From contig NZ_CP025472.1 of NCBI RefSeq assembly GCF_003957375.1, positions 1 through 58,171 of the forward strand: a stretch of DNA of 58,171 nt, written 5' to 3'. Each line of letters begins with the position of its first letter. Position 1 is the first letter of the stretch. The position numbers were made by a program, and so were the translations under genes. The notes under the pieces are model-generated. The model saw only the letters and a list, made by a program, of their open reading frames with translations. It did no database searches and had not been told where the DNA came from. Source of the DNA: Enterococcus mundtii (GTDB taxonomy: Bacteria > Bacillota > Bacilli > Lactobacillales > Enterococcaceae). This document shows, in pieces, positions 6,211 to 22,045 of the stretch.

Positions 6211-6213
6211 CTC

Positions 6214-7041: not shown

Positions 7042-7065
7042 ATGAATCCTCCTTTAATTTATTTA

Positions 7066-7350
7066 CTACATGCCTGGAGGATTTGAAAATACTCCAGTGA
7101 TCATGGTTCCCGCGCTAATCGCAAGCAACAGAATTCCACCAATGATCAACCAAGAGCCTTCCATTTTCCCTTGAGAGTCTCCTTGTCTCCCAGCTTGTGT
7201 GATCTGAACGATTCCCCAAACAGCTAACAAGGCGCCCCCACCGGCGATCAGCCACTGCAATCCTCCTGCAATTGTCTGAGCAGTTGCATTTGCATTTGCC
7301 ACAACTAGCGGTTCCAAACTTGTTGTTACATTCATTAAAAGTGATTTCAT
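7066..7350 (-). CDS. Pilin-like T4SS subunit (VirB2/TrbC-like, PrgF position)
   Basis: A 94-aa protein with two membrane helices (GLQWLIAGGGALLAVWGIVQI and SWLIIGGILLLAISAGTMITG) joined by a short charged loop (TQAGRQGDSQGKME). Two-helix proteins with this small basic loop are the VirB2/TrbC-like or Maff2-like subunits of Gram-positive conjugation systems. The start is supported by GGAGAATGAAAA just upstream. It lies between virD4 and prgH-like genes, where pCF10 has prgF/prgG. Confidence 0.75.
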   Translation of the reverse strand: MKSLLMNVTTSLEPLVVANANATAQTIAGGLQWLIAGGGALLAVWGIVQITQAGRQGDSQGKMEGSWLIIGGILLLAISAGTMITGVFSNPPGM

Positions 7351-7380
7351 TTTTCATTCTCCATTCAATTTAATATTTTA

Positions 7381-9165
7381 TTACGCCGCAAAATCAATAT
7401 CCAAAACCATTGGTTCTGAAAAAGATTCTTTTTTTACGTTTGATTCAAATTTTTCTAGGCTGTTTTTGTATCTTTTCACCTCGTACCAATTCGGATCGCC
7501 TTCTTTATGACCGAACTCTTTGGCATTTGGGTGATTTTTATAGTTGTATTTTGGTACTTTAAACATAGGTACTGAAGCAATTTTTACTAAGGCATGAAGT
7601 CGATCTAACTCCCCGACTTCACTAACTGAAATAACATCTTTTCCAACGGGTTCACTGCGAACAGAACCTTTATCACGCTTACGAATATAGATTGTCTTTT
7701 TTCCAGCTGCTTCAGAAAAAAACTTTGTGGTATCTGGTTCTGTCGATCCAGATAGATAAACCCAAGCGTCGCAGTTTCCAAAAAAGGATTTCCAATCCTC
7801 TTTGTACATAGCAACGATTTGATTGACGCTTTGTAATAAAATCGTGATACTCATCAAACGACTTCTAAATACAGACAAGGCCTGCTTGATATTTGGTACT
7901 TTTCCGAGATTGGCAAATTCGTCCATTAAAAATTCGATAGGGATATCTGCTTCTCCGCCCATTTCATTATCAATTTTGTGTTCAAGTGTTCGAAAAGAAA
8001 GTATAAAAATAAGGAGTGGTAAGAAGTTAAACGTCTCGTCCATATCCGGTATCTTCAAAAAGACCGCTGTCTTCTCCTCAACCCATTTTTCAATCTCTAG
8101 ATTATCCTCTTTGATAAAGTCTTTGACTTGTTCTAAATCAAATAAGGAGAAGCGGGTGATCGAAATAGCTAAAACACTGTCTCTAGTCTTTCCTTCAAAG
8201 TTTCGAAGGAAGTTTTGCCATTGGAGATAGGCATAATTTTCTTCGCCAAATTCTTCCGCAAAACTTTTAAACATAAATTCAAGCGGACTTTCTACGTCTT
8301 TATTCTCACGATTTAAAAGTCGAATCAAGGTACCGATTTGATCTAGGCTAGGCATAATACCGTCCCCTTTTACTTCTTCATTTCCTTTTCTTCCCCCACG
8401 ATAACGGTAATATAGATAAGCAAATAAGGAGGTAATCAACAACTCTTCAGCTTTGTCCCAAAAAGGTTCTCCTTTTTTCTCGTGATCCGCATTTGTCGCA
8501 TCAATCAATGCACTGATCACTTTTTTGAGTGTGATCTCGTCTTTAACATAAGCAAACGGGTTGAAATGATCAGTATTTGTCAACGTATCAAAATCAACAA
8601 CCTTGATCTTATACCCTCTACGTTCTAACATTTTCCCTACTCGATTGACTGTTCTCCCTTTTGGATCTGTCAGAACAAAACTAGACTTCATTTGAGCAAT
8701 ATTCGACATGATATAAGATGTCGTCTTCCACGATCCGGAACCTCCAATGACCATTACATTGTTGTTTCGATTTAATCGAGGATTTCTTCCCTCATAGAAA
8801 TTCTTATAGCAACCGTCCCCTAGAATAATATTGTCTGAAAAATTCTTTTTATTCCTGAACTTCTTCATTTCTTTCTTTGTTCCCCAGCGACCGCTTCCGT
8901 ATTCTTTCCCTGGCTCATACTCTCTTGTATCTCGCCCAAGATAGGTTAAAGACGCTAACGTTAAAACAGCGCCACAAGCAAGTAAGGAAGAATTTTCTAA
9001 TGAAAAATGGAATGGGTTATAAAATATTTCTTTATTCACCTGAAGTGCTGCTAAGAGCTTCTCCCCTTCTGGTGCATGCATAGCAAGCTCCGTTGCACGA
9101 TTGGCTACAAAACCTCCGACGCCACCAAAAAGCGCATAAGGAATAATTGACTGTTTTTTTGTCAT
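7381..9165 (-). CDS. virD4: VirD4/TraG type IV coupling ATPase (PcfC-like)
   Basis: A 594-aa protein with two N-terminal membrane helices (about residues 8-22 and 58-75), Walker A VIGGSGSWKTTS near residue 138, Walker B PIEFLMDEFANLGKVP, and the TraG-type motif ILLQSVNQI. It recruits the relaxase-bound plasmid strand at the membrane and feeds it to the channel. The PcfB-like gene upstream overlaps by 4 bases (ATGA-type), the same pair as pcfB-pcfC in pCF10. The Walker A has Trp where Gly/Ala is common, but the Lys-Thr pair is intact. Confidence 0.95.
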   Translation of the reverse strand: MTKKQSIIPYALFGGVGGFVANRATELAMHAPEGEKLLAALQVNKEIFYNPFHFSLENSSLLACGAVLTLASLTYLGRDTREYEPGKEYGSGRWGTKKEMKKFRNKKNFSDNIILGDGCYKNFYEGRNPRLNRNNNVMVIGGSGSWKTTSYIMSNIAQMKSSFVLTDPKGRTVNRVGKMLERRGYKIKVVDFDTLTNTDHFNPFAYVKDEITLKKVISALIDATNADHEKKGEPFWDKAEELLITSLFAYLYYRYRGGRKGNEEVKGDGIMPSLDQIGTLIRLLNRENKDVESPLEFMFKSFAEEFGEENYAYLQWQNFLRNFEGKTRDSVLAISITRFSLFDLEQVKDFIKEDNLEIEKWVEEKTAVFLKIPDMDETFNFLPLLIFILSFRTLEHKIDNEMGGEADIPIEFLMDEFANLGKVPNIKQALSVFRSRLMSITILLQSVNQIVAMYKEDWKSFFGNCDAWVYLSGSTEPDTTKFFSEAAGKKTIYIRKRDKGSVRSEPVGKDVISVSEVGELDRLHALVKIASVPMFKVPKYNYKNHPNAKEFGHKEGDPNWYEVKRYKNSLEKFESNVKKESFSEPMVLDIDFAA

Positions 9166-9896
9166 AGATCGATTCCTCCACTTATATCATCAAATAGAGA
9201 CAAAGCTTCTAGGCTTTCTTTTGCCTCTTTTGTGGTATCTACTGCAGTTTTTGTTCCATCTTTAATAGCAGTGACACTTGATTCTTTGGCCTCTTCGACT
9301 GCCGCAGCTTTTTCTTTCGTCTTTCCTTTCGCCTCTTCAATTAGCGCTTCAAGTGTTGGTTTTGTCACAGTTTCTGGATCGTTTATGATTGTTTCTACAG
9401 TCCTCTCAAGCGCACGAGCAGCAATGTTAGCATCTTTGGCATAAAAGTACATTTCTGAGGTCATGTCCGGAAATTCTTTTACGTGGAATTGTAAACCATA
9501 CTCTGTCATCATGTTTTTCAATTGGTCCAAATTTACCGCTTGATCTAAAAGTTGTGGCTCTGCTAGCATTTTATTTGAGGATAATAGGAACTCATAATCT
9601 TTTTCTCCAGCTTGTACAAGCAATTTTTTCTCACAATCACGAATCAATTCCATTTGTTTTTCTCTCGGCAATTGTTTAAATTTGAATTCTAATTCTGGAT
9701 TATCAGGAAGTCCAAGCTGTTCTCTAAGATTTTTAAACTTTTCCCAATTATCCGCTGTAAGTTGTTCTGCTTGTTGCTTCATTTCTTTACTTTTAGCTGC
9801 TTGCTTCAACATGGATAGTAAGCGAAACACTTGATATAACTTTTGTGGCGTCCCCTTACAAATCACTTGATAGGCTTCTTGTTGTGATTGACTCAT
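9162..9896 (-). CDS. PcfB-like (DUF3801) coupling-protein partner
   Basis: A 244-aa soluble protein. The first 180 residues form a compact helical domain ending in the DUF3801-type stretch YGLQFHVKEFPDMTSEMYFYAKD. The tail is a long charged helix rich in Lys, Glu and Ala (about 170-230). DUF3801/PcfB proteins are encoded immediately before the VirD4 coupling ATPase, as here, and are needed for plasmid transfer in pCF10. The stop overlaps the virD4 start. Confidence 0.82.
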   Translation of the reverse strand: MSQSQQEAYQVICKGTPQKLYQVFRLLSMLKQAAKSKEMKQQAEQLTADNWEKFKNLREQLGLPDNPELEFKFKQLPREKQMELIRDCEKKLLVQAGEKDYEFLLSSNKMLAEPQLLDQAVNLDQLKNMMTEYGLQFHVKEFPDMTSEMYFYAKDANIAARALERTVETIINDPETVTKPTLEALIEEAKGKTKEKAAAVEEAKESSVTAIKDGTKTAVDTTKEAKESLEALSLFDDISGGIDL

Positions 9897-9912
9897 ACTC
9901 TAGCCTCCTTCT

Positions 9913-10248
9913 TCAAAAATCATTAGGAAGGTGCGCTGTAATATCTGAATCTGCCAAGTGTTCTGATTCATCTTTTGATAAGTCGCCTTCTAAATGATTC
10001 TTTAAGGCTATTAAGAGGTTAGCCAACGTTTGATCAGTAAGTGTGATACCCTTTCGCATTTCCCCTTCAGGCGTCCAATTACGTAAATCATAAACAGCCT
10101 TACGGCCATTATAAGAAACTTTATTTAGTTCAACTGTAGTCCCCCATTTTGTACGATTGAGAATAGCAATCTCTTCTACCTTCTCAAATGATACATTTGG
10201 ATTCTTTTTTTCTTGGTCTGGTTGGTTTTGTGATAAATCCATTACCAT
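9913..10248 (-). CDS. YdbC/PC4-like single-stranded nucleic-acid-binding protein
   Basis: A 111-aa protein whose core (LNRTKWGTTVELNKVSYNG, KAVYDLRNWTPEG, RKGITLT) matches the YdbC family, bacterial relatives of the PC4 transcription coactivator that bind ssDNA as dimers. A perfect AGGAGGT precedes the ATG. Inside a transfer operon it probably coats or delivers the transferred strand, or acts in transcription; that role is inferred. It lies between sortase and pcfB-like genes, 17 bases before the latter. Confidence 0.85.
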   Translation of the reverse strand: MVMDLSQNQPDQEKKNPNVSFEKVEEIAILNRTKWGTTVELNKVSYNGRKAVYDLRNWTPEGEMRKGITLTDQTLANLLIALKNHLEGDLSKDESEHLADSDITAHLPNDF

Positions 10249-10280
10249 TGAAAATACCTCCTAAATTTTGATCATGTCTG

Positions 10281-10975
10281 TCACTCTGTCATTGTTGCTC
10301 GAACCATCAATCGATAATCCGTACCAGCCCGACTTCCATCACATGTCAGCAAGGTCAAGTAATGTGGTTCTTCCGGATTATCCAACATATACTGCCCTTC
10401 ACTTTGGTGGATAATTCTTGTCTCTTGTATCTCATACGTAGCTGTTTTTCCATAGAAAGTAATTTCTACTTGGTCGCCAACAGAAACATTCTTCAATCCA
10501 CCAAACAATAGTCCGCTATTGGTCATATAATGCCCCAACAGAGCAAAATTTCCTCGTCCGATTCGTTGATTCGGTTTCACAGTTCCTGCTCCAATACTAA
10601 GATTGGCCTGTGTCATACCTTCCAGAATTGGTAATTCCAACCCTATCGTTGGTATCCGTATAATTCCCACCCCATATTTTTGAATCAAATCCTTCGAATC
10701 GATCGAAAGATTTTGGGGCGTAAATCTTCAACATCGTCTCCTGAATAATCACCAATAACTCTTCTATATGGCGTTTTTCCACTCATTTCGCTTAGTCCAG
10801 CTTGTTGTAGATTTGAAATTTGTTGGTCAAACTGTCTCTGTCGATAGTGCATCGTGCCGATAATCGTTCCTATTAGTAAAACGACACTCAATATCCCAAG
10901 AATAATTTTCTTTTTGTGCGGGTGCTGCTTAAATTTTAATCGAATCCTTCTAAGCTTTATTTGTAATGCCTTCAA
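10281..10975 (-). pseudogene. Sortase, split by an apparent 1-nt frameshift
   Basis: An N-terminal membrane-anchored piece (HKKKIILGILSVVLLIGTII) and a catalytic piece overlap in different frames. Adding one T to the forward T4 run at 10711-10714 joins them as RPKNLSIDSKDLIQKYG and gives about 231 aa, a normal sortase. The fold motifs are present: substrate pocket GIIRIPTIGLELPILEG, His in FALLGHYM, Cys in TLLTCDG and Arg in TDYRLMVRA. The start is taken as TTG with AGGAG seven bases upstream. It follows the adhesin gene across a terminator and probably anchors plasmid-coded surface proteins. Confidence 0.85.
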
Positions 10976-11048
10976 TGCATTGCTCCTTTCCTTCGGAGAT
11001 AAATGAACCAAAATATTTTTTCGTTTTTTGGATCAAACTTACTAAAAA

Positions 11049-11082
11049 AGAGACAAGGAATTTCTTCCTTCGTCTCTTCTTA
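11049..11082 (-). terminator. Intrinsic terminator between adhesin and sortase genes
   Basis: On the minus strand, GAGACGAAGGAA pairs with TTCCTTGTCTC around a GAAA loop and is followed by six Ts. It would reduce expression of the transfer genes relative to the adhesin while letting some transcripts pass, because no separate promoter is obvious before the sortase gene. Confidence 0.75.
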
Positions 11083-11098
11083 ATCATCTATTTTGATT

Positions 11099-14000
11099 TT
11101 AAAATAGGTTCGAAAAAACAGCCTTAAGCTCTTCCAAAATACTTGCATTTCCTGCTTGTGGGATTGACGGAACTTGTGGTGTCTTTAGATCTTTTGGTAT
11201 AACTGGTAATTCAGGTTCTTCTTCTGGAGTTAAGAAGAGGACTGTTTGATCCTCATTTTCTAAGTCGAAATGCTCATTTACCAGATTCTCCATTTCAGGA
11301 TCATCATAGATCATATGAGTCGCTACCAATTCATATCCGCTCTCCATTGTGTTTGCTGGCAAATCTAATGTAATTGGTAATTCGTGTTCTTCGTCACCAG
11401 TGGATACAAACGATGAAGTATCTTCGGAAACAACTGCTACTTGCTCTTTTGTGTCTTTATTGACTTTAATGTATTGCGTAAGCATATAGTATTCATGGTC
11501 TTCTTTCCCCCACGAATCCAAGTAAAGTCGGTTAAATGATTGTCTTTTGTTGGATCTAAAACTTTACTTCCAGTTTCAGTTTCCACAAATAGCGTCTCCA
11601 CTTCTAAATCTAAACGGTGATTTTCTACTTCAAAGACAATAACTTCACCATCATTTTCTGGTGAAACTTCAAACGTATACTCTTCTTCGTTTGCATGATA
11701 CCAAGGTAGTTCTTGGGATTCTACCAACAAATAATGTCCAGTTGGCAATCCATCGATATTGATCTCACCATTTTCATCTGTCAAGAACGTTCCAATAAGA
11801 ACAGCTTCTTCAGGAGTTTCCTCATCGATTTCATCTTCACCTTCTAGATCCGTTGAGTCTTCTGACTCAGTTGAATCATCGGTATCGATTTCATCAGAAT
11901 TGGTTGTCTTTACAGCGTCTTCGTTCTCTTCAGTATCAGTATCTTCTTCAACGTCTTCACTTTCTTCAGGCGCTTCCTCGCTATCTTCTTCAGGATCAGT
12001 TTCTGGTGCTGGCACTCGATATAAATCAAAAGCAACACCTTCTAGCGGTTTTTGATCCATTCCATCGGTTTTAATAACTTGAACACCTGCACGAGCTAAA
12101 CGATTAATAATTGCGCCTGTCAGGTCCTCTTCTGGCTCTTCCTCCAGATCTATATCCTCTTCAGTACCAGGAGTTTCAGCATCTAAATTGGCATTAGTTG
12201 TCACTCCTTCTGCGTCGTCCTCCTCAGAATCAGCGTCAGGGTCTTCTTCTGCTTCGTCACCTTCAGCTTCGTCTTGACTTGCTTCTACTTGAATATCAAA
12301 AGAAACATCGTTGTTCTCTGGATCGTATACAAAATGGTGCTTCGTGTCATCCATTACATGATCGGGACCGGCATAGAGTTCTTGGATATACATAGGAATT
12401 GTTTGATTTGGCAATTTCAGCCCTTCAAAAGCAATTTTGCCTTCTTCGACTACTGAATAGCCTAACGTAGTATCAGCAGCTAATTCTTCTTCTCCAACAA
12501 GTAGTTCTTCTGCTAATCGTAGGGCAAATACTTGCCCGTTTTTCGCATTTTCTAATTCAACAACCGCTTTACCATCTTCCCAACCAGTTAGAACTTCTTG
12601 CATTTTTAGACCATAGATATTTAGGTCTTGTAGGAAGTTTTCTACTTCTAAAGAAGAGGACGTGATATCAACCGTTTGTCCTGCATAATCGATTGAGAAC
12701 GGAATTGGTTCGTCTAAAAGAACAACACCTGCGGGTGCAGAAACTTCAACGACTTCGTACTTACCGATAAACAGTAGTGGATCTGTCGTAAATTTACCAT
12801 CTTCGCCTGTAGTCCAAACGATATCTTCACCATCTGCTTGTAAGAATTTTCCTGCTTCATAACGCAGTGTACCGTCACCGGTCACGACATCTTCTGTTGG
12901 GCGAATCTTAAAGCCAAATCCATCCCCATTTCGTTGTTCGAATTCAATCGTCGTGTAGTCGCCATGATCACTTTCATTTACAACAGTAGAAACACCTGTT
13001 TCAACTGTTTTAGAAAGCTCTAGTTGTCCTTTTTGAGGCTTATTATCAAAAGTTGCCGTGACTGTTTCATTTACTTTGATTGTAATTGTTTGTGGCTTGC
13101 TGTTAATCACATAACCATTCGGTGATTGAATCTCTTCCATTGTCACCTTTTGATCATGGATTAAATCACGCCATTCACCAATTCCTTGATTGTTCGTTGT
13201 GATTTCTTTCGTTTTTCCATCATTTGTTGTAAAACGGAAAACTGCTCCTGCTAAAGGTTTTCCAGTAGTTTCATCTAATTTACGAACAGCTGCATGACCT
13301 TGTTTTTCAACTTTAACATTTAATGCAGCAATTCCTGGATCGGGTAAATGCAGACGAGAAAGATCTTGTGTTGTCCCATTCGTGTAAGCAAACGTGGTTC
13401 CTATCCCCGATCCATTAGGATCATATTTTGTTAGTCGAACTACTCCTGAATCATTAGAATTTGCAGAAGCAGCAATGACTAAATCATTTCCATCTTTTCG
13501 TACACTCACACCAGCCGTATTAGTTGAAACAGTACCATTCCAAGAAGAAAAACGGTTATGAGTATCTCGAACGCGTATTTCTTCGCCAGCTTTAACTGTT
13601 ACAGTAGTGTTGTGCCAAGAAGGATTTAGATCATGTTCAGCAATCTTTTTATCGACAGCAGCTTTGAACGAATCATATTTCGCTTTACCAAATGTTCCGT
13701 AATTGATAAAGCTACCTCCCATTTCATCCCACACTAGCATTTGTGTTAACGCATAATTTTCCATACTACGCTGGTTATAGTAACCAAAGTATCCGATAAA
13801 ACGAAGTCTTCTTGATCGACTTTCTGGAGATACTACATTATTAAGGTCTAATTTTTGATCGTATAAAATGCCAGCTTCTGTAAATACCCCTTCTTGAATA
13901 CAGAAAACATCTTCGCCATCAATTTGCCAACGAATGATCTTGTCATGCGTATAATGTAGACCAGAAGGTGTATAACGTGCGACATTAACATCTAAACGAC

Positions 14001-14448
14001 CATTTTCAGACAAACGATAAGAAGAACTTCTAGTCATTTTCTCTTCTTTAAGTTTTTGCCATTCATCTGATTGTGCAGCTAACTCCTGTTGCTCAGAATA
14101 CGATCCCAATTCATGAAGATCTTTTTCTCCGATAAAGAATTCTTTCATATTATCAGGGACTTCTTTAGTTATTAATTCCGGCCCGTCATTAGCTAGTTGA
14201 CTCTCTCCGGTTTGGATAGATCCAACAAAATCTCGATTGTTCATTAAGGGCAGCAACACTGGATCACTAACAGGTTCATTAGTTTCCTTATTGCTATCTA
14301 TTTCTTTCGTATCAGAACCATCATTGATTTTGATACTAGTTGATTGATCCAACAGTACCGTTGCCATACTATTTATCGGCAAACCTGTTGTAAGCAAAAC
14401 AGTCAGCAAGAACAAGCTGATCACTTTTTTCATTTTCTTATATTTCAT
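11099..14448 (-). pseudogene. Large thioester-domain surface adhesin with Cna-B repeats, split by an apparent 1-nt frameshift
   Basis: About 1116 aa once one G is restored in the G5 run at 11507-11511 (join IRGGKEDHEYYML). A signal peptide (VISLFLLTVLLTTGLPINSMA) is followed at about 175-240 by a thioester domain: Cys in EDVFCIQEG and Gln in YALTQMLVWDE can form the covalent-adhesion bond. Cna-B/SpaA-like modules come next (AAVRKLDETTGKPLAGAVF, VIKTDGMDQKPLEGVAFDL), with a long Asp/Glu-rich region between. The end reads VPSIPQAGNASILEELKAV, with an LPXTG-like IPQAG but no membrane helix or basic tail, so wall anchoring is uncertain. It probably promotes donor-recipient or host contact. GAGGAGACGATT precedes the start. 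Confidence 0.85.
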
Positions 14449-14477
14449 AATCGTCTCCTCATAAGCCTTTTAGCAAC

Positions 14478-14510
14478 AAAAAAAGACCAATGATTAGCTC
14501 ATTAGTCCTT
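14478..14510 (-). terminator. Attenuator-type terminator in the adhesin/transfer operon leader
   Basis: On the minus strand AGGACTAATGA pairs with TCATTGGTCT and is followed by seven Ts, ending 30 bases before the adhesin ATG. The rising arm contains the stop codon of a 17-codon leader ORF, the arrangement used in ribosome-controlled attenuation. A competing upstream hairpin (CCGAA...TTCGG, 14522-14541) lies within the ORF. Confidence 0.75.
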
Positions 14511-14555
14511 TACAACAATCTCCGAATATGACGGGCTTCGGCATCTACTATTCAT
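14502..14555 (-). CDS. Candidate 17-aa leader peptide of the transfer operon
   Basis: A minus-strand ORF encodes MNSRCRSPSYSEIVVKD. It has a good ribosome site (GAGGTG, seven bases before ATG), and its stop lies in the rising arm of the terminator at 14478-14510. Ribosome position on this ORF could decide whether transcription continues into the adhesin and T4SS genes. It is not a hydrophobic pheromone-type precursor like PrgQ. Coding function is inferred from the RBS and the overlap; the peptide resembles nothing I recognise. Confidence 0.5.
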   Translation of the reverse strand: MNSRCRSPSYSEIVVKD

Positions 14556-14573
14556 TTTTTATCACCTCAGTAC

Positions 14574-14606
14574 ATAAAAAAAAGGCAAGCTTTTCAGCTT
14601 TACCTC
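14574..14606 (-). terminator. Terminator after the LysM protein gene
   Basis: Minus-strand AGGTAAAGCT and AGCTTGCCT form an imperfect stem around GAAA, followed by a run of at least eight Ts. I see no good promoter between this hairpin and the leader ORF, so the adhesin operon may depend on read-through from the LysM gene. Confidence 0.7.
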
Positions 14607-14622
14607 TTTTTTACATTATTTT

Positions 14623-15495
14623 TTAATTATAAAATACAACTGTCCATCCAATTATATCGCCTTTAGCATTTAAGGCAGGATTTATTAAGAATCTAGTAAA
14701 CTCAACAAATTTATCCTCAGCCCATAATGCATATGCTTGTGCATTAGCCTCTTCTTGAGTAGCTGCAAAAATGCCGCTATTTCCAATATTAACAGGAATA
14801 TTATCAGTTTCATTGTCCTCGGAGCCATTGTCACCACCTGAACCATTATCCCCGCCTGTTGGAGGTGTTGTTTCTGTACCCCCACCAGAGGAACCGTTAT
14901 CGCCACCAGTTGGTGGTGTTACAGTGTTTTCTCCGCCAGTTGAGCCATTGTCTCCTCCCGCTGGTGGTGTCACGGTGTTTCCTCCGCCAGTTGAGCCATT
15001 TTCAGCACCTGTCGGCGGTGTTACTGTGTTTCCAGCATCCGTTGACCCACTATCTTCTGTTGCAGGAGGGGCAGGAACTGTCGCTGCTGGAGAACCTTGA
15101 TCAGTACTAGAACCAGTTGCTGGTGCTTGTCCGATTGGTTGCCCTGGATTGACTTTGTCGTTTTCGTTGATTACTGCTTGGCTAATAGTGTTCCCACTTT
15201 GATCTTGTACAGTAGCAATGTTTCCTTCAAATACTAACTTATTTCCCTCGAAAATGACATCTACATTCCCAATGCTATTCCATTCAGCTAATTTTTGAAC
15301 TGAAATATTTGTCGCTCCGCTAATGGCGCTTAGAGTATCGCCCCACTTTATCGTGTATTCATTGCCAGAAATTTCAGCTTTGATTTGTTCAACTGATCGA
15401 GGCGTCCATTCTGCGGCCTCTGCTTTTTCCGTCTGAATAGCTAACGCCACTCCTCCAACGGTTACACCGATTGCTAACACTTTTAACATTTTCAT
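14623..15495 (-). CDS. Secreted LysM-domain protein with Gly/Asn/Thr/Pro repeats
   Basis: A 290-aa protein with a signal peptide (VLAIGVTVGGVALAIQTEKAEA), a LysM peptidoglycan-binding domain at about 47-92 (NEYTIKWGDTLSAISGATN), a low-complexity linker at about 130-230 built from repeats of the GGDNGSTGGENTVTPPT type, and a C-terminal domain of about 55 aa ending IIGWTVVFYN. LysM enterococcal proteins with the same C-terminal domain are usually wall-associated. It is the first gene of the transfer-side transcription unit, so it may help mating contact; that is inference. Confidence 0.85.
   Translation of the reverse strand: MKMLKVLAIGVTVGGVALAIQTEKAEAAEWTPRSVEQIKAEISGNEYTIKWGDTLSAISGATNISVQKLAEWNSIGNVDVIFEGNKLVFEGNIATVQDQSGNTISQAVINENDKVNPGQPIGQAPATGSSTDQGSPAATVPAPPATEDSGSTDAGNTVTPPTGAENGSTGGGNTVTPPAGGDNGSTGGENTVTPPTGGDNGSSGGGTETTPPTGGDNGSGGDNGSEDNETDNIPVNIGNSGIFAATQEEANAQAYALWAEDKFVEFTRFLINPALNAKGDIIGWTVVFYN
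14826..15064 (-). repeat. Tandem repeat linker inside the LysM gene
   Basis: Degenerate repeats of about 16-17 codons encode Gly-Gly-Asp-Asn-Gly-Ser and Asn-Thr-Val-Thr-Pro-Pro-Thr blocks. At least four copies are visible. Length variation between strains would be expected here by slippage. Confidence 0.8.
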
Positions 15496-15559
15496 TTATT
15501 CTTCCTTCTTTCCTTTTTGTATTATATCAATATCATAATATACATATAATGATAGGTCA

Positions 15560-15629
15560 ACAATTATATCGTGGATTTTTTTCTTTTTTTCATCTATACT
15601 ACTTCTATAGATACTTAGGGGGTGTTAAC
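15560..15629 (+). promoter_or_regulatory. Divergent control region with a 7-bp inverted repeat
   Basis: This lies between the LysM/transfer operon (minus) and the small DNA-binding gene (plus). An inverted repeat ATCTATA...TATAGAT lies at about 15592-15612, and AGGGGG precedes the plus-strand ATG. It could be the operator through which the small protein controls itself and the transfer operon; no experiment supports this. Confidence 0.35.
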
Positions 15630-15869
15630 ATGAAAGATACCGATTCAAAAGAAATGCGAGAATGGATCTTAGATAATCTTGTTACAAAGCAAGGTGCTAT
15701 GAAAATTACGGGTCAGTCCGGACCTGCCTTTCAACAAGCAGTAAGAACGAACATGGTCACTCCTTTTGTTGAATACAATGAGTCTCCAGTAGTGCGTTTA
15801 TACTTAAAAAGTGAGATTGAAGCTTATGCAAAGCAAGTCGCACTTAGAAAGAATAAATTGAAAAAATGA
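15630..15869 (+). CDS. Small excisionase-like (MerR-fold) DNA-binding protein, candidate transfer regulator
   Basis: A 79-aa protein starting MKDTDSKEMREWILDN with a strong RBS (AGGGGG, seven bases before ATG). The helix-turn-helix-like stretch VTKQGAMKITGQSGPAFQQA followed by RLYLKSEIEAYAKQV is typical of small winged-helix excisionase-type proteins. It is divergent from the LysM/adhesin/transfer operon, the usual place for its regulator. Family and role are inferred from this short pattern and position. Confidence 0.6.
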   Translation: MKDTDSKEMREWILDNLVTKQGAMKITGQSGPAFQQAVRTNMVTPFVEYNESPVVRLYLKSEIEAYAKQVALRKNKLKK

Positions 15870-15919
15870 ATAATCAAAAGAACTATCATTCATTGGAAAC
15901 AAATGAATCCTAGCTTAGT

Positions 15920-16053
15920 AGTTACCAGGGAGGACGTCCTTCACGAAAAGGGCGCTTAGCGTTGAAATATTTCAAGAGTAAAGTATTCTTTGAGACTTTA
16001 AAAAGGAAAAACCTAAACCTAGAATTTGGATTGAAAAGATCTCCCTGGCAACT
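15920..16053. ncRNA. Inverted-repeat-bounded segment, candidate structured RNA
   Basis: AGTTACCAGGGAG at 15920-15932 pairs with CTCCCTGGCAACT at 16041-16053 (12 of 13). The one mismatch is A/C on the plus strand and a U-G wobble on the minus strand. Inside are shorter palindromes (GGACGTCC, TTGAAATATTTCAA, AAAGT...ACTTT). No ORF fits. It could be a minus-strand RNA or a binding site or small mobile element; I do not recognise the class. Confidence 0.4.
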
Positions 16054-16070
16054 ATTAAGATAGGATTTAC

Positions 16071-16283
16071 TTATTTATAATAACTATAAATTAAGCATAT
16101 CAAACCTGATAAATTTCGCCAAATGATATCCTGTGCATTTTCATACAATTTTAATAAAACGATTGATCGATATAGACCAAATATCTTTTTAGTCGAGAAA
16201 AACGGTTTAATATTGTATTTATTTAAAAATAATTTCCAACCATTTTGGTAAAGATAACATTTTAATTTTTTAATGAATTTCAA
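16071..16283 (-). CDS. Doubtful small basic ORF
   Basis: A 70-codon AT-rich frame with a TTG start and AAAGGA close upstream, encoding a basic, aromatic-rich peptide (LKCYLYQNGWKLFL, IWRNLSGLICLIYSYY). It follows the 16.3 kb membrane ORF and could be the end of a broken gene or chance. I recognise no family. Confidence 0.2.
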   Translation of the reverse strand: MKFIKKLKCYLYQNGWKLFLNKYNIKPFFSTKKIFGLYRSIVLLKLYENAQDIIWRNLSGLICLIYSYYK

Positions 16284-16311
16284 TATCCTTTTCTTGTAAA
16301 TTTTTTCACTA

Positions 16312-16533
16312 TCAAATCAACTTCAATGAAATCACTAAAAAACCAAACACAACAAAGTACCACAAAAATAATAGGACTAGCGGAAACCACAGAAGTCCGA
16401 AAAAATAATAATTCCAATAAACTACCGATCCTAAAATTAGAGTAACAAAACCACTGATAAAGATTCGCCAAAACCACATTGCTAGTTTTTCAAGTCGCCG
16501 TTCGTATTCTAGTGTCCATTCATTTGAAATCAT
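16312..16533 (-). CDS. Small two-helix membrane protein, unknown
   Basis: About 73 aa from ATG (MISNEWTLEYERRLEKL) with two hydrophobic segments (IFISGFVTLILGSVVYW and WFPLVLLFLWYFVVFGFLV). A GTG 12 bases upstream is an alternative start, with AAGGAG right next to it. It is followed by out-of-frame open sequence and precedes nothing recognisable. It may form a pair with the 127-aa membrane protein upstream. Confidence 0.45.
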   Translation of the reverse strand: MISNEWTLEYERRLEKLAMWFWRIFISGFVTLILGSVVYWNYYFFGLLWFPLVLLFLWYFVVFGFLVISLKLI

Positions 16534-16600
16534 AATTTGCGACACGCTCCTTCTACTGCTTCTATTTTCATCGAATTCATTTCTCCTATTAACCGATTGT

Positions 16601-16984
16601 TCAATGGTCCATTCGAAGCCCTAAATTAGTTTCTTTTTGTGCATAATCTTCGACAAGGCTCATTACATCTTGCCACACCTCATCAATACTTTTTTGATTT
16701 ACTTCTCTTTTGAACAAAACCCTACTTGAAATGCTCTCAGGATATACTAGAAGTGGATATGCTTTCCAGATAATTTGCTGAACATAATTTTTATCTACAT
16801 ATTCTTTAAGTTCATGATTGGAGTCATAAGCTAACTTTCGAGAAAATTGAACATTATTTATCGAATTATCAAAATTAGACTGCTCCATTTGTACTTTCAT
16901 TGCCATCGATATAATCCCAATAAACACAATCACATGAACCACTACTTTTAACAATCCCTCATATTTGTTTTTCAATATAAACAT
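16601..16984 (-). CDS. Bitopic membrane protein, unknown
   Basis: A 127-aa protein with one N-terminal membrane helix (LLKVVVHVIVFIGIISMAM) and a mostly helical outside domain that starts VQMEQSNFDNSINNVQFSR. GGAGG lies just before the ATG, so it is probably expressed. I recognise no family. It belongs to a run of small minus-strand genes of unknown role. Confidence 0.55.
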   Translation of the reverse strand: MFILKNKYEGLLKVVVHVIVFIGIISMAMKVQMEQSNFDNSINNVQFSRKLAYDSNHELKEYVDKNYVQQIIWKAYPLLVYPESISSRVLFKREVNQKSIDEVWQDVMSLVEDYAQKETNLGLRMDH

Positions 16985-17118
16985 TGCTATCCTCCTGATT
17001 CATTCTTAAGAATGCGATTAATTATTCTTCCGGCATACGTGTCAATTCATTCAGCGTTATAACCAAAGAGAAAAGATATTTATAATGAACAGCATCTATA
17101 ATTTTGGTGGTTAGTGGA

Positions 17119-17406
17119 CTAAACTAAAGCTCCGTCAAGAGCCAATAACGTTGATTCATTGTCATTAATGCAACTAAAAACCTGATTACCTGCCTCATGA
17201 AGACCTACTGGCTCAGCTGTCTCTTCACTCACTGTATTCGCAACTTTTGTAATGGCAACTGTCGTCTCAAGTTCTTTCATACTAGCCATAAAGTCCTCTT
17301 TGTCTTCTACGTCACACACTACTTCTTCATAAAATTCCATACATTTCCCTTCATTTTCAGCTGCTACAATTGCAAAATACGGGTCATTAATTTCAAAAAA
17401 TCTCAT
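17119..17406 (-). CDS. Hypothetical acidic protein
   Basis: A 95-aa acidic protein starting MRFFEINDPYFAIVAAENEG with a beta-alpha pattern (FFEINDPYFAIVAA, CMEFYEEVV). Small proteins with this opening are common in Firmicute plasmids and phages, without known function. An AGAGAGGAAG-type RBS precedes the ATG. Confidence 0.6.
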   Translation of the reverse strand: MRFFEINDPYFAIVAAENEGKCMEFYEEVVCDVEDKEDFMASMKELETTVAITKVANTVSEETAEPVGLHEAGNQVFSCINDNESTLLALDGALV

Positions 17407-17506
17407 TTGTTATCTTCCTCTCTAGTTTTTTATTTCTGTCGATACTAAACTATCTAATATTTATTCTTAAAAGCTCTATTGCTGTGCCACTTTTTGTGTT
17501 TTCTCC

Positions 17507-17671
17507 TCAATTTGCAGAAGTACGATTAGAATCTATATTAAGTTCAAAACCCTGTTTCTGAGCAAATGTTATTTCTTCTTCAAAAGCTTGTTGCGCCTTC
17601 ACTTTAGAACTATATAGCGTAGGTAAGTTTGACTCATTTGGGGTAATATTTATCGCCCAAACATATTTCAT
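17507..17671 (-). CDS. Small hypothetical protein (54 aa)
   Basis: An ORF starting MKYVWAINITPNESNLPTLY and ending in NRTSAN, preceded by GAGG ten bases before ATG. It fills the gap between two small genes on the same strand and has ordinary codon use. No family recognised. Confidence 0.45.
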   Translation of the reverse strand: MKYVWAINITPNESNLPTLYSSKVKAQQAFEEEITFAQKQGFELNIDSNRTSAN

Positions 17672-17709
17672 TGTCTTCGCCTCATTCCTTTATCTCTACC
17701 ATTAGTTGA

Positions 17710-17898
17710 CTAGTCTCCCTTGACCTCCTCTAAGTCGACAGGAGATACGTCTTGCGGGTATCTGCCTTCTAAATATTTCTGCTTGCCGATAACACATAAA
17801 ACGCCGTCCGGATAAGTACGAACATATTCGACGATCGTGCCTATTTCGAAGTTGTGATTATACCGGCTATTGCCTACGACTTTGAATTTTTTAGTCAT
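17710..17898 (-). CDS. Small hypothetical protein (62 aa)
   Basis: Starts MTKKFKVVGNSRYNHNFEIG; this ATG is preferred over one six bases upstream because AGGAGA has correct spacing only for it. Beta-rich sequence (GTIVEYVRTYPDGVLCVIG) suggests an SH3-like barrel, a guess only. Part of the same small-gene run. Confidence 0.5.
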   Translation of the reverse strand: MTKKFKVVGNSRYNHNFEIGTIVEYVRTYPDGVLCVIGKQKYLEGRYPQDVSPVDLEEVKGD

Positions 17899-17956
17899 TT
17901 TCATTCTCCTATTCCACAATCTCTTCCACTAATCAACTATTTGGGTGGATTACTGA

Positions 17957-18175
17957 CTAATTCAAGTTGCTGACTTCAATGCACAATGTAGGAATATCTT
18001 TTCCATCATGTGTACTAACACCTGCTTCTAGTAGCGTTACCTCATATTCTGCCGCTCGTGGGTAAGTTCCTATAATATCTTTAACTAAAATTCCTGTTGG
18101 GTAAGTCTCTTCTACAATTTCAAACGTTACATCGGCTTTGTCTGGGCAAAATTTCAATAATTCGTTTAGTTTCAT
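17957..18175 (-). CDS. Small hypothetical protein (72 aa)
   Basis: A 72-aa acidic protein (MKLNELLKFCPDKADVTFEI; ends TLCIEVSNLN) with GAGGAAC before the ATG. No family recognised. Expected to be co-transcribed with its small neighbours. Confidence 0.55.
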   Translation of the reverse strand: MKLNELLKFCPDKADVTFEIVEETYPTGILVKDIIGTYPRAAEYEVTLLEAGVSTHDGKDIPTLCIEVSNLN

Positions 18176-18236
18176 TTTCAGTTCCTCCTATTCGGATATT
18201 TCTGTCATAAAATTGCTTCTTTCAAACGTTCTGTTT

Positions 18237-18512
18237 CTAAAAATTCAACAGTAATTCAGGTTTTTTTAAAAACAGCAAAACATTTTTTTTGGATTTATGA
18301 ATTTTTCTTACATCAAATAGTTCTCCTGTTTCTAGAATCTCTATCCCCTTACCAGAACGAAGATTGTGAATGTCTACCGCTCCACTGTTGAAAATCCGGT
18401 ACTCGATTCCCAGATAGTACTCTCCCTTATCCACGAATTTACTTGTATGACCTGCCTTAAACACTTGGCAATGTTTCTTTTTAATTTGGCAATAAACTTC
18501 TTTTTGTTCCAT
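18237..18512 (-). CDS. Small basic hypothetical protein (91 aa)
   Basis: A basic, beta-rich protein (MEQKEVYCQIKKKHCQVF; KGEYYLGIEYRIFNSGAVDI). It lies just after a terminator and before a 72-aa gene. No family recognised; the short Cys/Lys-rich start does not form a clear zinc motif. Confidence 0.5.
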   Translation of the reverse strand: MEQKEVYCQIKKKHCQVFKAGHTSKFVDKGEYYLGIEYRIFNSGAVDIHNLRSGKGIEILETGELFDVRKIHKSKKNVLLFLKKPELLLNF

Positions 18513-18540
18513 AGCTATTAATCGTTCCTTTCTGATTGAA

Positions 18541-18580
18541 AAAAATAGAAGCTCATAGGAATTCCTACAAGCTTCTATTT
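18541..18580 (-). terminator. Intrinsic terminator
   Basis: AATAGAAGCT pairs with AGCTTCTATT across a 17-base loop, with a T run on the minus strand. It overlaps the last codons of the 86-aa gene and ends the 19.3-18.6 kb unit. Confidence 0.7.
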
Positions 18581-18825
18581 CTCTTACACGTATATTTTGG
18601 CTTAATTTTTAATAGTGTTTCTGTCTTCCAACTATCAATATCGACTCGTTTTTTAATGTAAGTAACTTCAAAATAAGGCGAACCACTGATTTCACGGCGT
18701 AAATCAATTGACCTTTTATTGTTCCATGTTCCTTTTTGTTCTTGTAATTCAAAGTAGTCAGCTAACAAAATCTTTTTTCTTCTGCCAGAATCCATAAATG
18801 ACAACAATTTTTCAATTTCACTCAT
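18565..18825 (-). CDS. Small hypothetical protein (86 aa)
   Basis: A basic protein starting MSEIEKLLSFMDSGRRKKIL. Its start overlaps the stop of the upstream membrane gene by 8 bases, so the two form an operon. The C-terminus (TLLKIKPKYTCKRNRSL) is very basic, possibly nucleic-acid or membrane-surface binding. No family recognised. Confidence 0.55.
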   Translation of the reverse strand: MSEIEKLLSFMDSGRRKKILLADYFELQEQKGTWNNKRSIDLRREISGSPYFEVTYIKKRVDIDSWKTETLLKIKPKYTCKRNRSL

Positions 18826-19345
18826 GAGATTCTCCTAAAAAAGAGAAACTTTGTTCAGAAAATAACCTATTCACTTCTTCAATCTCCGAATCTATTATTC
18901 CAACTTCCATTCCCAGTTCTCGAATTATCTTGATATATTCTGATTTTATATAGGCATTCTTTAGTAATACTACCAAACAACCAATAAGACAAATAGCTGT
19001 AAAAAAAATAATAATCGAATACCTATAAATTCCACCCAAATCGCCACTCTCCGTGTAGATCAAAATTAGGATTTGGGTTATACAATAGATTAAACATACA
19101 ATAGAAATTGGAATCATAGCAATGAACTCCGGAAAGATATAACGTATTAAACATTTAATTCGTTTGGAAATGTTATCATCAATCGCTGATGACATTCTGT
19201 TCATAATTTCAATTGTTTTTAACCTTTTAAATCTCAAATTCTTTAACTTTATCTCACAATCATTTCTTATTTCATCTGCCTCGAGACGACTTATTTTTGA
19301 CATAGTCTCCCTGTACTTCTGATCAGCGTCAAATGATTTTTGCAT
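18818..19345 (-). CDS. Two-helix membrane protein with coiled-coil ends
   Basis: A 175-aa protein: charged coiled-coil N-terminus (MQKSFDADQKYRETMSKISR), two membrane helices (FIAMIPISIVCLIYCITQIL and YSIIIFFTAICLIGCLVVLL), then a second coiled coil. The topology recalls small phage or plasmid membrane proteins without known role. It is coupled to the 86-aa gene downstream. Confidence 0.55.
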   Translation of the reverse strand: MQKSFDADQKYRETMSKISRLEADEIRNDCEIKLKNLRFKRLKTIEIMNRMSSAIDDNISKRIKCLIRYIFPEFIAMIPISIVCLIYCITQILILIYTESGDLGGIYRYSIIIFFTAICLIGCLVVLLKNAYIKSEYIKIIRELGMEVGIIDSEIEEVNRLFSEQSFSFLGESHE

Positions 19346-19501
19346 ATCTTTTCTCCTTCGACAAATTTGTTAACATCTTCGGAAACCTCTCGATTATTCT
19401 TAAATAACTGCTCCTTTGGACCACCTCTATTGTTATAAATAAAAGAGAAGAACAACTTCTTTAAGCTTTATCGATTGATCAAAGAAGATACTTGGCTTGA
19501 T

Positions 19502-19830
19502 CAATTAAAAAATATTTTTACTTACAAATGATATTGGAATCACTTTTAGGATAAGTGAGAACCTGCCGGTTTAGGGTTCCGAGCTACCTCACATATTTCT
19601 CACTCCCAGTGCTACCAAGCCCAGATATCCATCTGTAAGCCGTCTGAAAGAAATAAATATGAACTTCAATGCTTGAGGTGTTCCAATAGTCACCTCAAGC
19701 CCTGTCCTTTATGGGTGAATAGCAACGTGTTATAGACAGTCAGATTCCCACGTCTTTTCTGCTATTCTTGATATTCTCTTTTCAAAGGACACACAAGTTT
19801 TCACTTGCAAGTAGAAATATTTTTTAATCG
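19502..19830 (-). ncRNA. Candidate large structured RNA closed by a 28-bp terminal helix
   Basis: 19502-19529 pairs with 19803-19830 over 28 bp (24 identical complements). Three of the four mismatches become U-G wobbles only in a minus-strand transcript. Inside, nested helices pair 19704-19710 with 19784-19790, 19717-19723 with 19761-19767 and 19725-19729 with 19749-19753; local hairpins pair 19672-19680 with 19691-19699, 19622-19626 with 19631-19635 and 19555-19561 with 19597-19603. No ORF fits. A weak terminator-like AAGAAG...CTTCTCTTTT lies near 19445 on the minus strand. I do not recognise the RNA class. It begins eight bases after the stop of the broken gene at 19838. Confidence 0.55.
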
Positions 19831-19837
19831 TTTAATT

Positions 19838-20353
19838 CTAAGAGCGTATTTTATAAGGAAACTCAACTAAGCAAAGAGGATCAGATCGCTTCGATCGTTT
19901 AGCAAAAATGACTTTTCCTGGCAATGCGGCAGTCCTAATATCCTCAAATCTTTTACTTAACGAATCGATTTGTCTTGTTTGCGGATTAAATATTTGACCA
20001 TCCCCAGCATTGATCCAAATTGAACGATCGAACAAACGAATCGACTGTGATCGATTTTCAATTTCTGTTAGTGAACAAACCGAAGTAACAGCCCTCACTC
20101 GTCTGTTTTTGCTTTTATCAACTACCAATTCAACCAATCCTCTCTTATGAAATAATTTGAAGTATATTTTCCAGCTCCAATCTCGTGGTCAATAATCACG
20201 TCGAACACGATTGGTGTATCCTAATAATGCTAAAAAGTTAGCTACCTCCACTTCGGCAAGCCTACTTTCTTGTCTCTGCTGTTTTAACTGCTCGATCGTT
20301 AAACCTTTTCCTCGGTTTTTATTAAAAAATTCTTGAAATTCCCGCTAAGTCAT
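19838..20353 (-). pseudogene. Unknown 171-aa basic protein interrupted by two in-frame stop codons
   Basis: A single continuous frame starts at ATG with an excellent ribosome site (GGGAGGTGATTAG). It contains TAG at codon 3 and TGA at codon 55 and otherwise reads as a coherent basic protein: REFQEFFNKNRGKGLTIEQL, LAEVEVANFLALLGYTNRV, then PRDWSWKIYFKLFHKRGLVE and DRSIWINAGDGQIF, ending LVEFPYKIRS. Frame is kept throughout, unlike the frameshifted genes of this plasmid, so these look like substitutions (or recoding). It sits between two structured segments. I recognise no family; the Arg/Lys content fits nucleic-acid binding. Confidence 0.55.
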
Positions 20354-20368
20354 TCTAATCACCTCCCG

Positions 20369-20741
20369 TTTTGGCAAAAATTTGCTAAAATATATTTCAG
20401 ACAAACAAAAAAGGGTGCCACGTGACCTAAATCACGTGGCACCCCTTACTGTTCAGCTATTTCCAACGAGATATTTAACTAGAAAAGTCGACAGTCTTCC
20501 CCATTTGGGCGTGACTAAGAAGCTATTCTATGCTAAACTAAACCTCGTTGGGCGCAGCCCAACAGAGGGGTATGCACCATGATATTAGAGCCTTGAAATC
20601 TAATATTCATGCATACATGTGCTCAGGTGTAGGAGCCTGATCGCATGTCGCATCCCCTTTTTTGATTGCCTGAAAATATATCTCAACCTGCGCAATCAAA
20701 AAAACTATATTTAAACATTAATTTTTTTCTTTTTGCCAAAA
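20369..20741. ncRNA. Second inverted-repeat-bounded structured segment, candidate leader or stand-alone RNA
   Basis: TTTTGGCAAAAA at 20369-20380 and its exact inverse at 20730-20741 bound this segment. Inside, GTTGGGC/GCCCAAC (20547-20563), GTATGCA/TGCATAC (20570-20576 with 20610-20616), ATATTAGA/TCTAATAT (20582-20606), CAGG/CCTG and a closing GGGG/CCCC form a branched fold, followed toward 20406 by a strong minus-strand terminator. A T run after CCCC on the plus strand (20658-20663) leaves the orientation open. No real ORF is present. On the minus strand it would be the leader of the gene at 19838. Confidence 0.5.
20406..20445 (-). terminator. Strong intrinsic terminator upstream of the broken gene
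   Basis: GGGTGCCACGTGA pairs perfectly with TCACGTGGCACCC around a 7-base loop, followed by six Ts on the minus strand. Located 53 bases before the ATG at 20353, it could either end a stand-alone RNA or act as an attenuator for that gene. Confidence 0.8.
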
Positions 20742-20871
20742 TTATCATTTTCACAAAAAGCATAGCATTGTTCTGTTCTTTTCGCAAGGAATTTCCGAAA
20801 ATACAGAATTGCATGCTTTTTTTAGTTTTGATGAATTAGTATTCTATGTCCGCTCAAAATTTATTTATAAT

Positions 20872-21073: not shown

Positions 21074-22045
21074 ATGCGATTCCATGAAACGATAAAATAT
21101 ATACGAATCAAGTTGAATCTTACACAAAAGGACATTTACGAAGGAATAGTATCACAATCAACATATTCACGATTCGAAAATGGTCTGCGAATACTTCCAA
21201 TCGAAGATATAGAAGTATTCGCGAACCGTTTAGGTATGCAACTATCCGACGTATACACTATCCAAAAAGAACAAGACAACTGCATGACTTACATTATCAA
21301 TCAAACTAAAAAATGCCTTAATCAAAAAAACGATCCTATGCAAGAACTAAACATCCATAGTTTAGAGCATTTATTCAAAACTGCGAATAAGTATAAAAAT
21401 AGTTCTTTAGAATTTCTGCGGTACTTTTACTTAATTCGACAACACTTCCACAAGTTTAGTCCTAACATACCAAAGATAACCTCCAAAGATACGGATCGTA
21501 TTTATTTTGAATTAAAAAAACGGAAACTGATAACTCGGATACACCATCAATTCATCATAGATTTTACTGTACATTTTTCGGACGAACAAATTTTAGACAT
21601 CTCTAATTTTTTTAAAGAATATGATTTTAATCAAATCTCATCGTTCAACTCACAATACTCTTATCAATTACCCGAAGCGTTGTCCAATTTAGCAGATAGC
21701 TCTATTGATCGAGCATTATACCGAACAGACAATATAAAAGGTAAATTATTAGATAATGCAAATGAACTTCTGTCAATGTTGTTTAAATACCAAAATATAA
21801 AATATTCTTCAGACCATGTAATCTTATACAAAGTATCAAAATACCGATATGATTACTACATAGCAGACAATGAACAAGATAAAGCATCCGCTAGACAAAA
21901 CTTAGAAGATTTTTTAGAAGAATTAAAATATTACATCAGCAAAGCCCCCGTACGACACATCTACGCAGAAGGCTGTATCCCATCTGTAGAAAATACACTA
22001 GCTGGTAAGCTGCCACTAAAAGAAATAAATTATATAATCACCTAA
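21074..22045 (+). CDS. Rgg/PrgX-family (RRNPP-type) transcriptional regulator
   Basis: A 323-aa protein with an N-terminal helix-turn-helix at about 5-60 (IRIKLNLTQKDIYEGIVSQ, TYSRFENGLRILPIEDIEVF), followed by about 250 aa of helices as in the peptide-sensing repeat domain of Rgg and PrgX. Length and layout match these peptide-responsive regulators, whose cues are short exported peptides. It is one of few plus-strand genes, between replication and the small-gene region. GGAGTG precedes the ATG. Its target could be transfer, adhesion or copy control; nothing in the sequence decides this. Confidence 0.8.
   Translation: MRFHETIKYIRIKLNLTQKDIYEGIVSQSTYSRFENGLRILPIEDIEVFANRLGMQLSDVYTIQKEQDNCMTYIINQTKKCLNQKNDPMQELNIHSLEHLFKTANKYKNSSLEFLRYFYLIRQHFHKFSPNIPKITSKDTDRIYFELKKRKLITRIHHQFIIDFTVHFSDEQILDISNFFKEYDFNQISSFNSQYSYQLPEALSNLADSSIDRALYRTDNIKGKLLDNANELLSMLFKYQNIKYSSDHVILYKVSKYRYDYYIADNEQDKASARQNLEDFLEELKYYISKAPVRHIYAEGCIPSVENTLAGKLPLKEINYIIT

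Follow-up and report, generated by a model that had tools for sequence, protein, structure and literature searches.

RESULTS

A small gene between two folded segments precedes conjugation genes

The window, i.e. the whole stretch of DNA analysed here, is a 58,171-base contig (G000:C2) of an Enterococcus mundtii genome that comprises two contigs. Its minus strand carries a compact module consisting of a structured leader (segment A), a 96-codon gene and a second folded segment (B), and a gene for a PrgX-like regulator diverges from it (Table 1). Nearest to the module on its 3' side are small ORFs, a LysM protein and a SpaA-type adhesin; genes for a type IV coupling protein, a HerA-domain ATPase that is probably VirB4-like, and a relaxase all lie on the module's strand. 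An earlier note on this DNA had held that the arrangement fits none of the other plasmid functions and could be a regulatory, defence or maintenance system. The first of these views is not supported: the module precedes conjugation genes, its protein matches an annotated ConAn1, segment A has the anatomy of the pCF10 leader, and the whole looks like transfer control and not like defence or maintenance.

The E. mundtii plasmid pPe10301 matches the 2.7 kb surrounding the module at 100.0 percent (99.8 percent for segment A alone). Three further Enterococcus plasmids match this region partially, with 75.6–79.7 percent identity over the whole matches as compared to 87.6–90.8 percent in A and 85.8–86.7 percent in B. 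Positions 1–19500 contain 21 terminator-like sites on both strands versus 12.1 (sd 3.6) in shuffles; 11 of the 21 are on the operon strand, and three of those 11 have at least 10 pairs.

Two frames follow B. The product of the gene at 18565–18825 gave tblastn matches in 9 of the 14 loci searched, E. hirae among them, and this small protein seemingly belongs to the module. The 175-aa frame at 18818–19345, between B and that gene, has no Pfam match and gave no tblastn match in the 14 loci.

Table 1. Features of the module and its surroundings in the window
Feature	Position	Strand	Basis
HerA-domain ATPase gene	3541–5208	minus	
Type IV coupling protein gene	7384–9165	minus	
Segment B, conAn2-like RNA with 30-bp terminal helix (19801–19830 with 19502–19531)	19502–19830	minus	0/200 shuffles as good; covariation in 10 sequences; folding z -5.8
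B core: hairpin and two tandem H-type pseudoknots	19532–19645	minus	11/18 pairs changed on both sides, 0/500 shuffles; model R1
ConAn1-like gene, 96 aa, TTG start at 20128	19838–20128	minus	Profile match; weak PF17362 match; RefSeq CDS (WP_241234751.1) in pPe10301
Remnant of separate small gene, ~70 codons, TAG at codon 3, TGA at codon 55	20141–20353	minus	Intact homolog in L032
Segment A, structured leader RNA ending in intrinsic terminator	20395–20750	minus	Folding; closed multi-branch core in 11/12 leaders
P0 3' strand, overlapping terminator U-tract	20395–20413	minus	Helix search
Intrinsic terminator at end of A	20410–20447	minus	17-pair stem and T tract
Candidate antisense (anti-Q/PX-like) promoter GTGACT-17-TAAACT, TG before -10	20511–20539	plus	Extended -10 in 10/12 leaders
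Three-way-junction core of A and following hairpin	20546–20657	minus	Folding
P0 long-range helix, 5' strand	20657–20675	minus	19-bp helix to 20395–20413
P1 local hairpin, 5' strand (partner 20657–20669), mutually exclusive with P0	20692–20704	minus	13-bp helix
Candidate main operon promoter TTGCGA-17-TATGCT, PQ/Pc equivalent	20759–20787	minus	By eye; conserved in four-plasmid alignment
Imperfect palindrome around leader promoter -35, candidate operator	20759–20817		Conserved in four-plasmid alignment (by eye); putative function
PrgX-like helix-turn-helix regulator gene, 323 aa, divergent from module	21074–22045	plus	phmmer to PrgX structures, E 6.4e-5; Pfam HTH_3, 4.7e-9
Relaxase gene	47283–48782	minus	

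The 96-codon gene encodes a relative of ConAn1

The frame between A and B had been described in the earlier note as a single 171-codon gene with a perfect ribosome site. Two stop codons divide it, and only its last part is the conserved gene. The first part is a decayed small gene that shares its reading frame with the 96-codon gene; the ribosome site is present, but it belongs to the decayed gene and not to the conserved one. In related loci (given by L numbers where they have to be told apart) the ~70-codon gene is intact in L032, open with a CTG start in L005 and L006, and mostly deleted in L004.

Ten plasmid records contain relatives found with the window protein as query. When an E. hirae relative served as the tblastn query against 72,556 plasmid records the number was 31, of which 19 are from Listeria, 11 from Enterococcus and one from Bacillus. 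The protein in the Bacillus record, pBatNRS213, is annotated 'Antiterminator protein ConAn1' (27 percent, E 2e-3). A profile of 11 Enterococcus relatives scored pBatNRS213 ConAn1 at 43 bits (E 6.7e-15 in a five-sequence set), the 11 rows having been aligned jointly with that protein beforehand; the same profile gave 42 bits both for a Listeria innocua plasmid protein and for a protein of Enterococcus sp. LX10. ConAn1 of pBatNRS213 has 170 aa and can be aligned to the Enterococcus relatives over its first ~80 only. The Pfam family PF17362 (pXO2-34, of unknown function) has a match below its cut-off in the window protein (E 1.5e-4) and exceeds the cut-off in two of seven proteins, those of L034 and L035. 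Sequence comparison relates the 96-codon gene to ConAn1, which is the protein component of the pLS20-type antitermination system conAn. Of the 105 family genomes examined, 12 carry relatives, at 16 places in all; a sample of 395 genomes from the order also has 12 with relatives, eight of these being shared with the family set.

An AlphaFold2 model of the 96-aa protein has a mean pLDDT of 86, with block means above 90 at residues 21–90. Its structural matches are weak (Z at most 3.5) and mixed, including NlpC/P60 peptidases, KOW, CarD, Lsm, Hfq and others, and we draw no family from them. The small barrels among them (Lsm/Hfq, KOW) and the tight flanking of a small basic protein by folded RNAs would suit a feedback loop in which the protein regulates its own expression by binding the leader and trailer of its RNA, with B acting only as an mRNA-stability or translation element. 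We consider this improbable, given that the pBatNRS213 relative is annotated as ConAn1, that an antitermination role is reported for ConAn1/conAn2 (PMC8955417), and that the module lies ahead of conjugation genes, which is the reported place for conAn-type systems.

Segment B is closed by a long helix that is maintained between distant lineages

The earlier note placed a structured RNA eight bases past the stop codon and called both segments folded, and both observations are borne out: the closing helix of B begins at the eighth base after the stop, and the minus strand of 19502–19830 folds at -100.4 kcal/mol against a shuffle mean of -72.2 (z -5.8, 0/100 as low). For A (20395–20741, minus) the corresponding values are -135.4 and -85.5 kcal/mol (z -9.6, 0/100).

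In 25 loci, not all of which are independent, we looked for ungapped pairing of the initial 70 nt past the stop codon with sequence at least 150 nt downstream, with a reach of up to 520 nt (720–760 nt for L064, pCF10, L071 and L072). A closing helix is found in 17 of the 25, pBatNRS213 included: in 15 loci none of 200 dinucleotide shuffles is as good, and in two (L059 and L060) one is. In the remaining eight more of the shuffles are as good (of 200: L056, 9; L062, 12; L054, 38, where the contig ends early; L063, 64; L058, 80; L035, 94; L055, 130; L057, 187). Across 11 representatives the strands of one locus score 39.5–65.5 with each other and mostly 10–30 when swapped between loci, with higher swapped scores among related loci (up to 41 for L034, L013 and L059; 47.5–53 for pCF10 versus L071).

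A covariance search of both segments was the check that the earlier note proposed, and in B changes on both sides of pairs exceed shuffles in the closing helix as well as in the core. In ten aligned sequences of the closing helix 17 of 35 pairs vary on both sides, compared to 8.7 in shuffles (0/500), and shifting the partner by 1–3 columns lowers pairing from 95.9 to 42–54 percent; one of five measures, further pair types, is not unusual (68/500 shuffles). The closing-helix pairing is kept between distant lineages although the sequence has changed.

Inside the helix lies a core of one hairpin and two pseudoknots in tandem, each of the form AGG..X..CCU..X'. In this core 11 of 18 pairs change on both sides versus 4.5 in shuffles (0/500), a test that favours the structure, since the structure was drawn up after inspection of the same sequences; here too, further pair types is the one of five measures that is not unusual (42/500).

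The core of B is linked to the ConAn1-like gene

From ten rows, one of them the window, we built a model of the B core (R1) and applied it to 19 sources, among which the window is itself a row and L007, L014 and L031 are near copies of rows. R1 finds a core adjoining the protein in L035 and L055–L058, and a cut-off part of one in L054, a locus similar to the E. hirae rows. Nothing credible turns up in L061, L062, L063, L064, L065, L070, L071 and L072, and the single R1 match in L037 lies elsewhere and is not credible (E 0.67). R1 misses the B segments of pBatNRS213, Listeria, pCF10, LX10, L061 and the E. faecium PrgR plasmids, so that subtypes have different inner RNAs.

In the 105 family genomes, with up to 35 first-look candidates scored per genome, R1 finds at least 13 sites in at least 10 genomes. 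Six of the 13 are model rows and one (G048:C13) is a near copy, all chosen for the adjoining protein; of the other six, five lie 201–257 bp from a ConAn1-like match, and the one in G077 is in a genome with no such match. In the 395 order genomes (up to nine candidates scored in each) there are sites in at least eight. As to the possibility, raised in the earlier note, that the protein occurs widely without the segments, 12 of its 16 sites in the family genomes have a B core 195–257 bp away, six of them being model rows and one a near copy. At the other sites, the L054 contig ends inside the core, L061 has the closing helix only, and two weak protein hits, G093 and G001, have neither core nor closing helix. 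In these genomes the ConAn1-like protein rarely occurs without B RNA.

Weak B-core matches were seen in L088 (G077:C2:3201–3322; E 1.5e-5) and L089 (G264:C1; E 7.8e-4), and G264 is not among the order genomes with a ConAn1-like match. In L057 (2200–3050), and also in L055 and L056, a ConAn1-like gene and B core lie seemingly outside a conjugation operon; by eye, the L057 pair has ribokinase/transporter-like frames 5' and a small protein and an adhesin-like frame 3', and L055 sits on a 2.8-Mb contig. The module has possibly been taken over at such loci to control surface proteins.

Segment A resembles a countertranscript attenuator

The terminator that the earlier note saw at the end of the first segment is present; to judge from the sequence alone, it lies ~350 nt from the predicted leader start and before the operon genes. 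The candidate leader promoter (Table 1) was not listed by a consensus promoter scan. We folded 12 leader cores with boundaries cut by eye. Eleven of them, all except L060, take up a closed multi-branch core as their minimum-energy fold, and a hairpin follows in all 12. Directly after this hairpin, on the opposite strand, 10 of the 12 leaders, including those of the window and pCF10, carry an extended -10 (TGnTAnnnT) versus 0.43 expected, the motif having been noticed before it was counted. The exceptions are L034, with a TATAAT lacking the TG, and pBatNRS213, without an extended -10.

When six A cores were given to RNAalifold, 10 of 34 pairs showed changes on both sides, but the covariation term is unfavourable (+0.84), and the three-way junction is not returned. 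The long-range helix P0, in which the 5' part of A pairs with the terminator U-tract and sequence past it, is better than all 200 shuffles in 12 of 17 loci, with a narrow margin in the window (35.5 versus 32.5 for the best shuffle) and in L004 (35.5 versus 35.0). It is weaker in L005 (2/200) and L032 (24/200), and does not exceed chance in pCF10 (191/200), L058 (159/200) and pBatNRS213 (138/200).

Segment A might be a mere structured 5' UTR with an insulating terminator and no antisense control, the -10 matches being due to chance or some other cause. The antisense promoter of the window is a modest consensus match that the scan did not list, and the pBatNRS213 leader has neither the extended -10 nor P0; yet the motif recurs at one and the same place far above expectation, and pCF10, where anti-Q is studied, is among the ten. 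We regard the plain 5' UTR as rather unlikely. That A and B are stand-alone, trans-acting non-coding RNAs, serving for example plasmid maintenance or copy control and unrelated to read-through, is in our judgement highly improbable: both are large folded domains, and since A ends in a terminator a free RNA of ~350 nt is to be expected from it, but the B core is tied to the protein gene, an Rfam search of the region gave no relevant match, and the order A, ConAn1-like gene, B recurs at other loci ahead of adhesin and conjugation genes. The countertranscript attenuator remains our preferred reading of A.

Two further observations concern individual leaders. In the E. hirae leader hairpin, L013 and L014 differ from L015 in that the apical loop is swapped for its reverse complement (GTTGGCGC versus GCGCCAAC), as expected if the specificity of sense and antisense loops diversifies. 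Upstream of the ConAn1-like frame of L058, which carries a TGA, lies a palindromic CTGTCTCTTATACACATCTAGATGTGTATAAGAGACAG; it resembles a library-adapter sequence, and contig G014:C1 may therefore be misassembled there.

The pCF10 leader shares the architecture of A

In pCF10 the leader ends at IRS1 and anti-Q is reported to favour termination (PMC7117660, PMC6540685, PMC8265641); anti-Q arises from the antisense promoter PX (PMC7117660, PMC6540685), and Q and anti-Q have been modelled (PMC3161895). The extended -10 that we find opposite the pCF10 leader is, in our reading, PX. The window shares with prgX/prgQ/anti-Q the divergent PrgX-type gene, the folded leader core, the following hairpin, the position of a candidate antisense -10, and a terminator that precedes the operon genes. 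It differs in having P0, which pCF10 lacks, and in showing, by eye, no conserved inhibitor-peptide frame in its leader alignment.

In primary sequence the window core does not match that of pCF10 (z 1.1, 23/150 shuffles as good). The cores of L013, L071, L061, L065, L059 and pCF10 form one connected set (L065–pCF10, z 9.6; L061–pCF10, 8.9; L071–L061, 8.4; L013–L071, 6.2; L059–pCF10, 5.0). The window and L032 cores match each other (z 13.8) and do not match that set, the best pair being L032–L059 (z 2.4). A model of the leader core built from six leaders (R2) finds L054, a near copy, and L058 (E 2e-4), reaches pCF10 at E 0.28 only, and does not find the window leader. We therefore assign the window leader by architecture and gene order, not by sequence: it is said to work like the pCF10 prgQ leader, and is not filed as a member of that group.

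A helix also closes a segment 3' of prgR in pCF10 (L070, NC_006827.2; segment 3143–3563), where 27 bp pair between record positions 9142–9168 and 9536–9562 (0/200 shuffles). It begins at the 17th base past the prgR stop and closes ~420 nt, within which lies the whole of the next frame (record 9176–9397, annotated as hypothetical), by gene order prgS. Two similar E. faecium plasmids, one of them L071, carry PrgR relatives, 42 and 39 percent identical. In both, prgR is followed by a helix of this kind, and the leader contains a P0 of 24 bp; the L071 leader core matches the E. hirae type. L061 combines a pCF10-matching leader core, a ConAn1-like protein and a B-type closing helix.

On the plasmid of Enterococcus sp. 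LX10 (L065, 2089–2983) an inhibitor-peptide-like frame (MRKFNKQSILKIIPFVISLSLVLAG, by eye) comes first, then a leader of the Q type, and after it a ConAn1-like gene with a closing helix of the B type. This locus is a bridge between pheromone plasmids and the window-type module.

DISCUSSION

The locus described here probably heads a conjugation operon, which it would control first by a countertranscript attenuator and then by an antiterminator of the conAn type. As we picture it, a PrgX-like repressor would gate a minus-strand promoter at ~20760–20790. In a first step, leader A would act as a countertranscript attenuator like that of pCF10 prgQ, nascent RNA either stopping at 20447–20410 or reading on; termination should become more likely when a short antisense RNA is made from the opposite strand, with its start near 20545, and the P1 5' strand could alternatively pair with the terminator U-tract region (P0), telling terminated from read-through RNA. 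In a second step, polymerase that has passed the terminator would transcribe the ConAn1-like gene and then B, which is predicted to fold into a closed domain with tandem pseudoknots, to stay with the polymerase and to make it ignore downstream terminators. The ConAn1-like protein would maintain this antiterminated state over the long minus-strand operon through the coupling-protein and ATPase genes. What the sequences show is the relation of the protein, the pairing and covariation in B, the pairing of P0, the antisense -10 motif and the linkage of the B core to the protein gene; the activities in the scheme are assigned by analogy with work on pLS20 and pCF10.

Comparison with conAn bears on the second step. 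In pLS20 plasmids conAn is reported to sit at the start of a >30 kb conjugation operon, the conAn2 RNA bringing about antitermination and the ConAn1 protein processivity, and the Inc18 plasmids pIP501, pAMbeta1 and pRE25 seem to be without conAn (PMC8955417). The pLS20 promoter is placed 461 bp upstream of gene 28, with a long 5' UTR predicted to form complex structures (PMC4207663), and gene 28 is conAn1 (PMC11730352). The window has a similar layout: a related protein near the operon start, a folded segment with a long terminal helix directly 3' of it, and a position ahead of conjugation genes and after a long structured 5' UTR. Segment B occupies the slot of conAn2, and a long closing helix is shared with pBatNRS213, although R1 has no match there. 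The systems differ in the length of the protein (96 aa in the window versus 170 in pBatNRS213), in the leader, that of pBatNRS213 being without the extended antisense -10 and P0 of the window, and in the regulator, which is PrgX-like here and Rco in the conAn system. The canT RNA of Tn916 is a cis-acting antiterminator (PMC11658703), and it has in common with EAR of the eps operon and put of phage HK022 that a structured cis-acting RNA mediates antitermination; as far as the cited descriptions go, these three work without an element-encoded protein, and it is by those descriptions that we set them apart (PMC11658703, PMC8955417).

The earlier note's proposal of a regulatory RNA-protein module is supported by the compensated pairs in B, the long-range helix in A in most loci tested and the rarity of the protein without its RNA. 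Its suggestion that the module is something undescribed is not supported for the parts, given that the protein matches an annotated ConAn1 and A shares the anatomy of the pCF10 leader; the coupling of conAn-type and pCF10-type controls may be undescribed so far. What is new here is best read as a variant built from known kinds of control, combined ahead of conjugation genes.

A broader reading, to which we give an even chance, is that conjugation operons of diverse Gram-positive plasmids begin with one and the same RNA-controlled module, in which an attenuator leader of the Q/anti-Q type precedes a ConAn1-like protein and this in turn a closed antitermination RNA. On this reading pCF10 would have the module too, PrgR taking the place of ConAn1 and the prgS frame lying within an RNA of the conAn2 kind. 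The case for pCF10 is made by gene order, the leader relation and the helix; sequence homology between PrgR and ConAn1 is not established, and R1 has no match in the pCF10 segment.

Conjugative plasmids spread antibiotic resistance, and layered control holds their transfer operons off. The locus described here suggests that countertranscript attenuation, as in pCF10, and RNA-protein processive antitermination, as in pLS20, are successive parts of one module. If this is true, there would be a concrete, testable mechanism for how the positive control region of pCF10 acts at a distance, and an annotated protein frame (prgS) would have to be counted as RNA instead. With its tandem pseudoknots, the core of B would, in addition, offer a compact structural target for understanding how an RNA makes polymerase ignore terminators.
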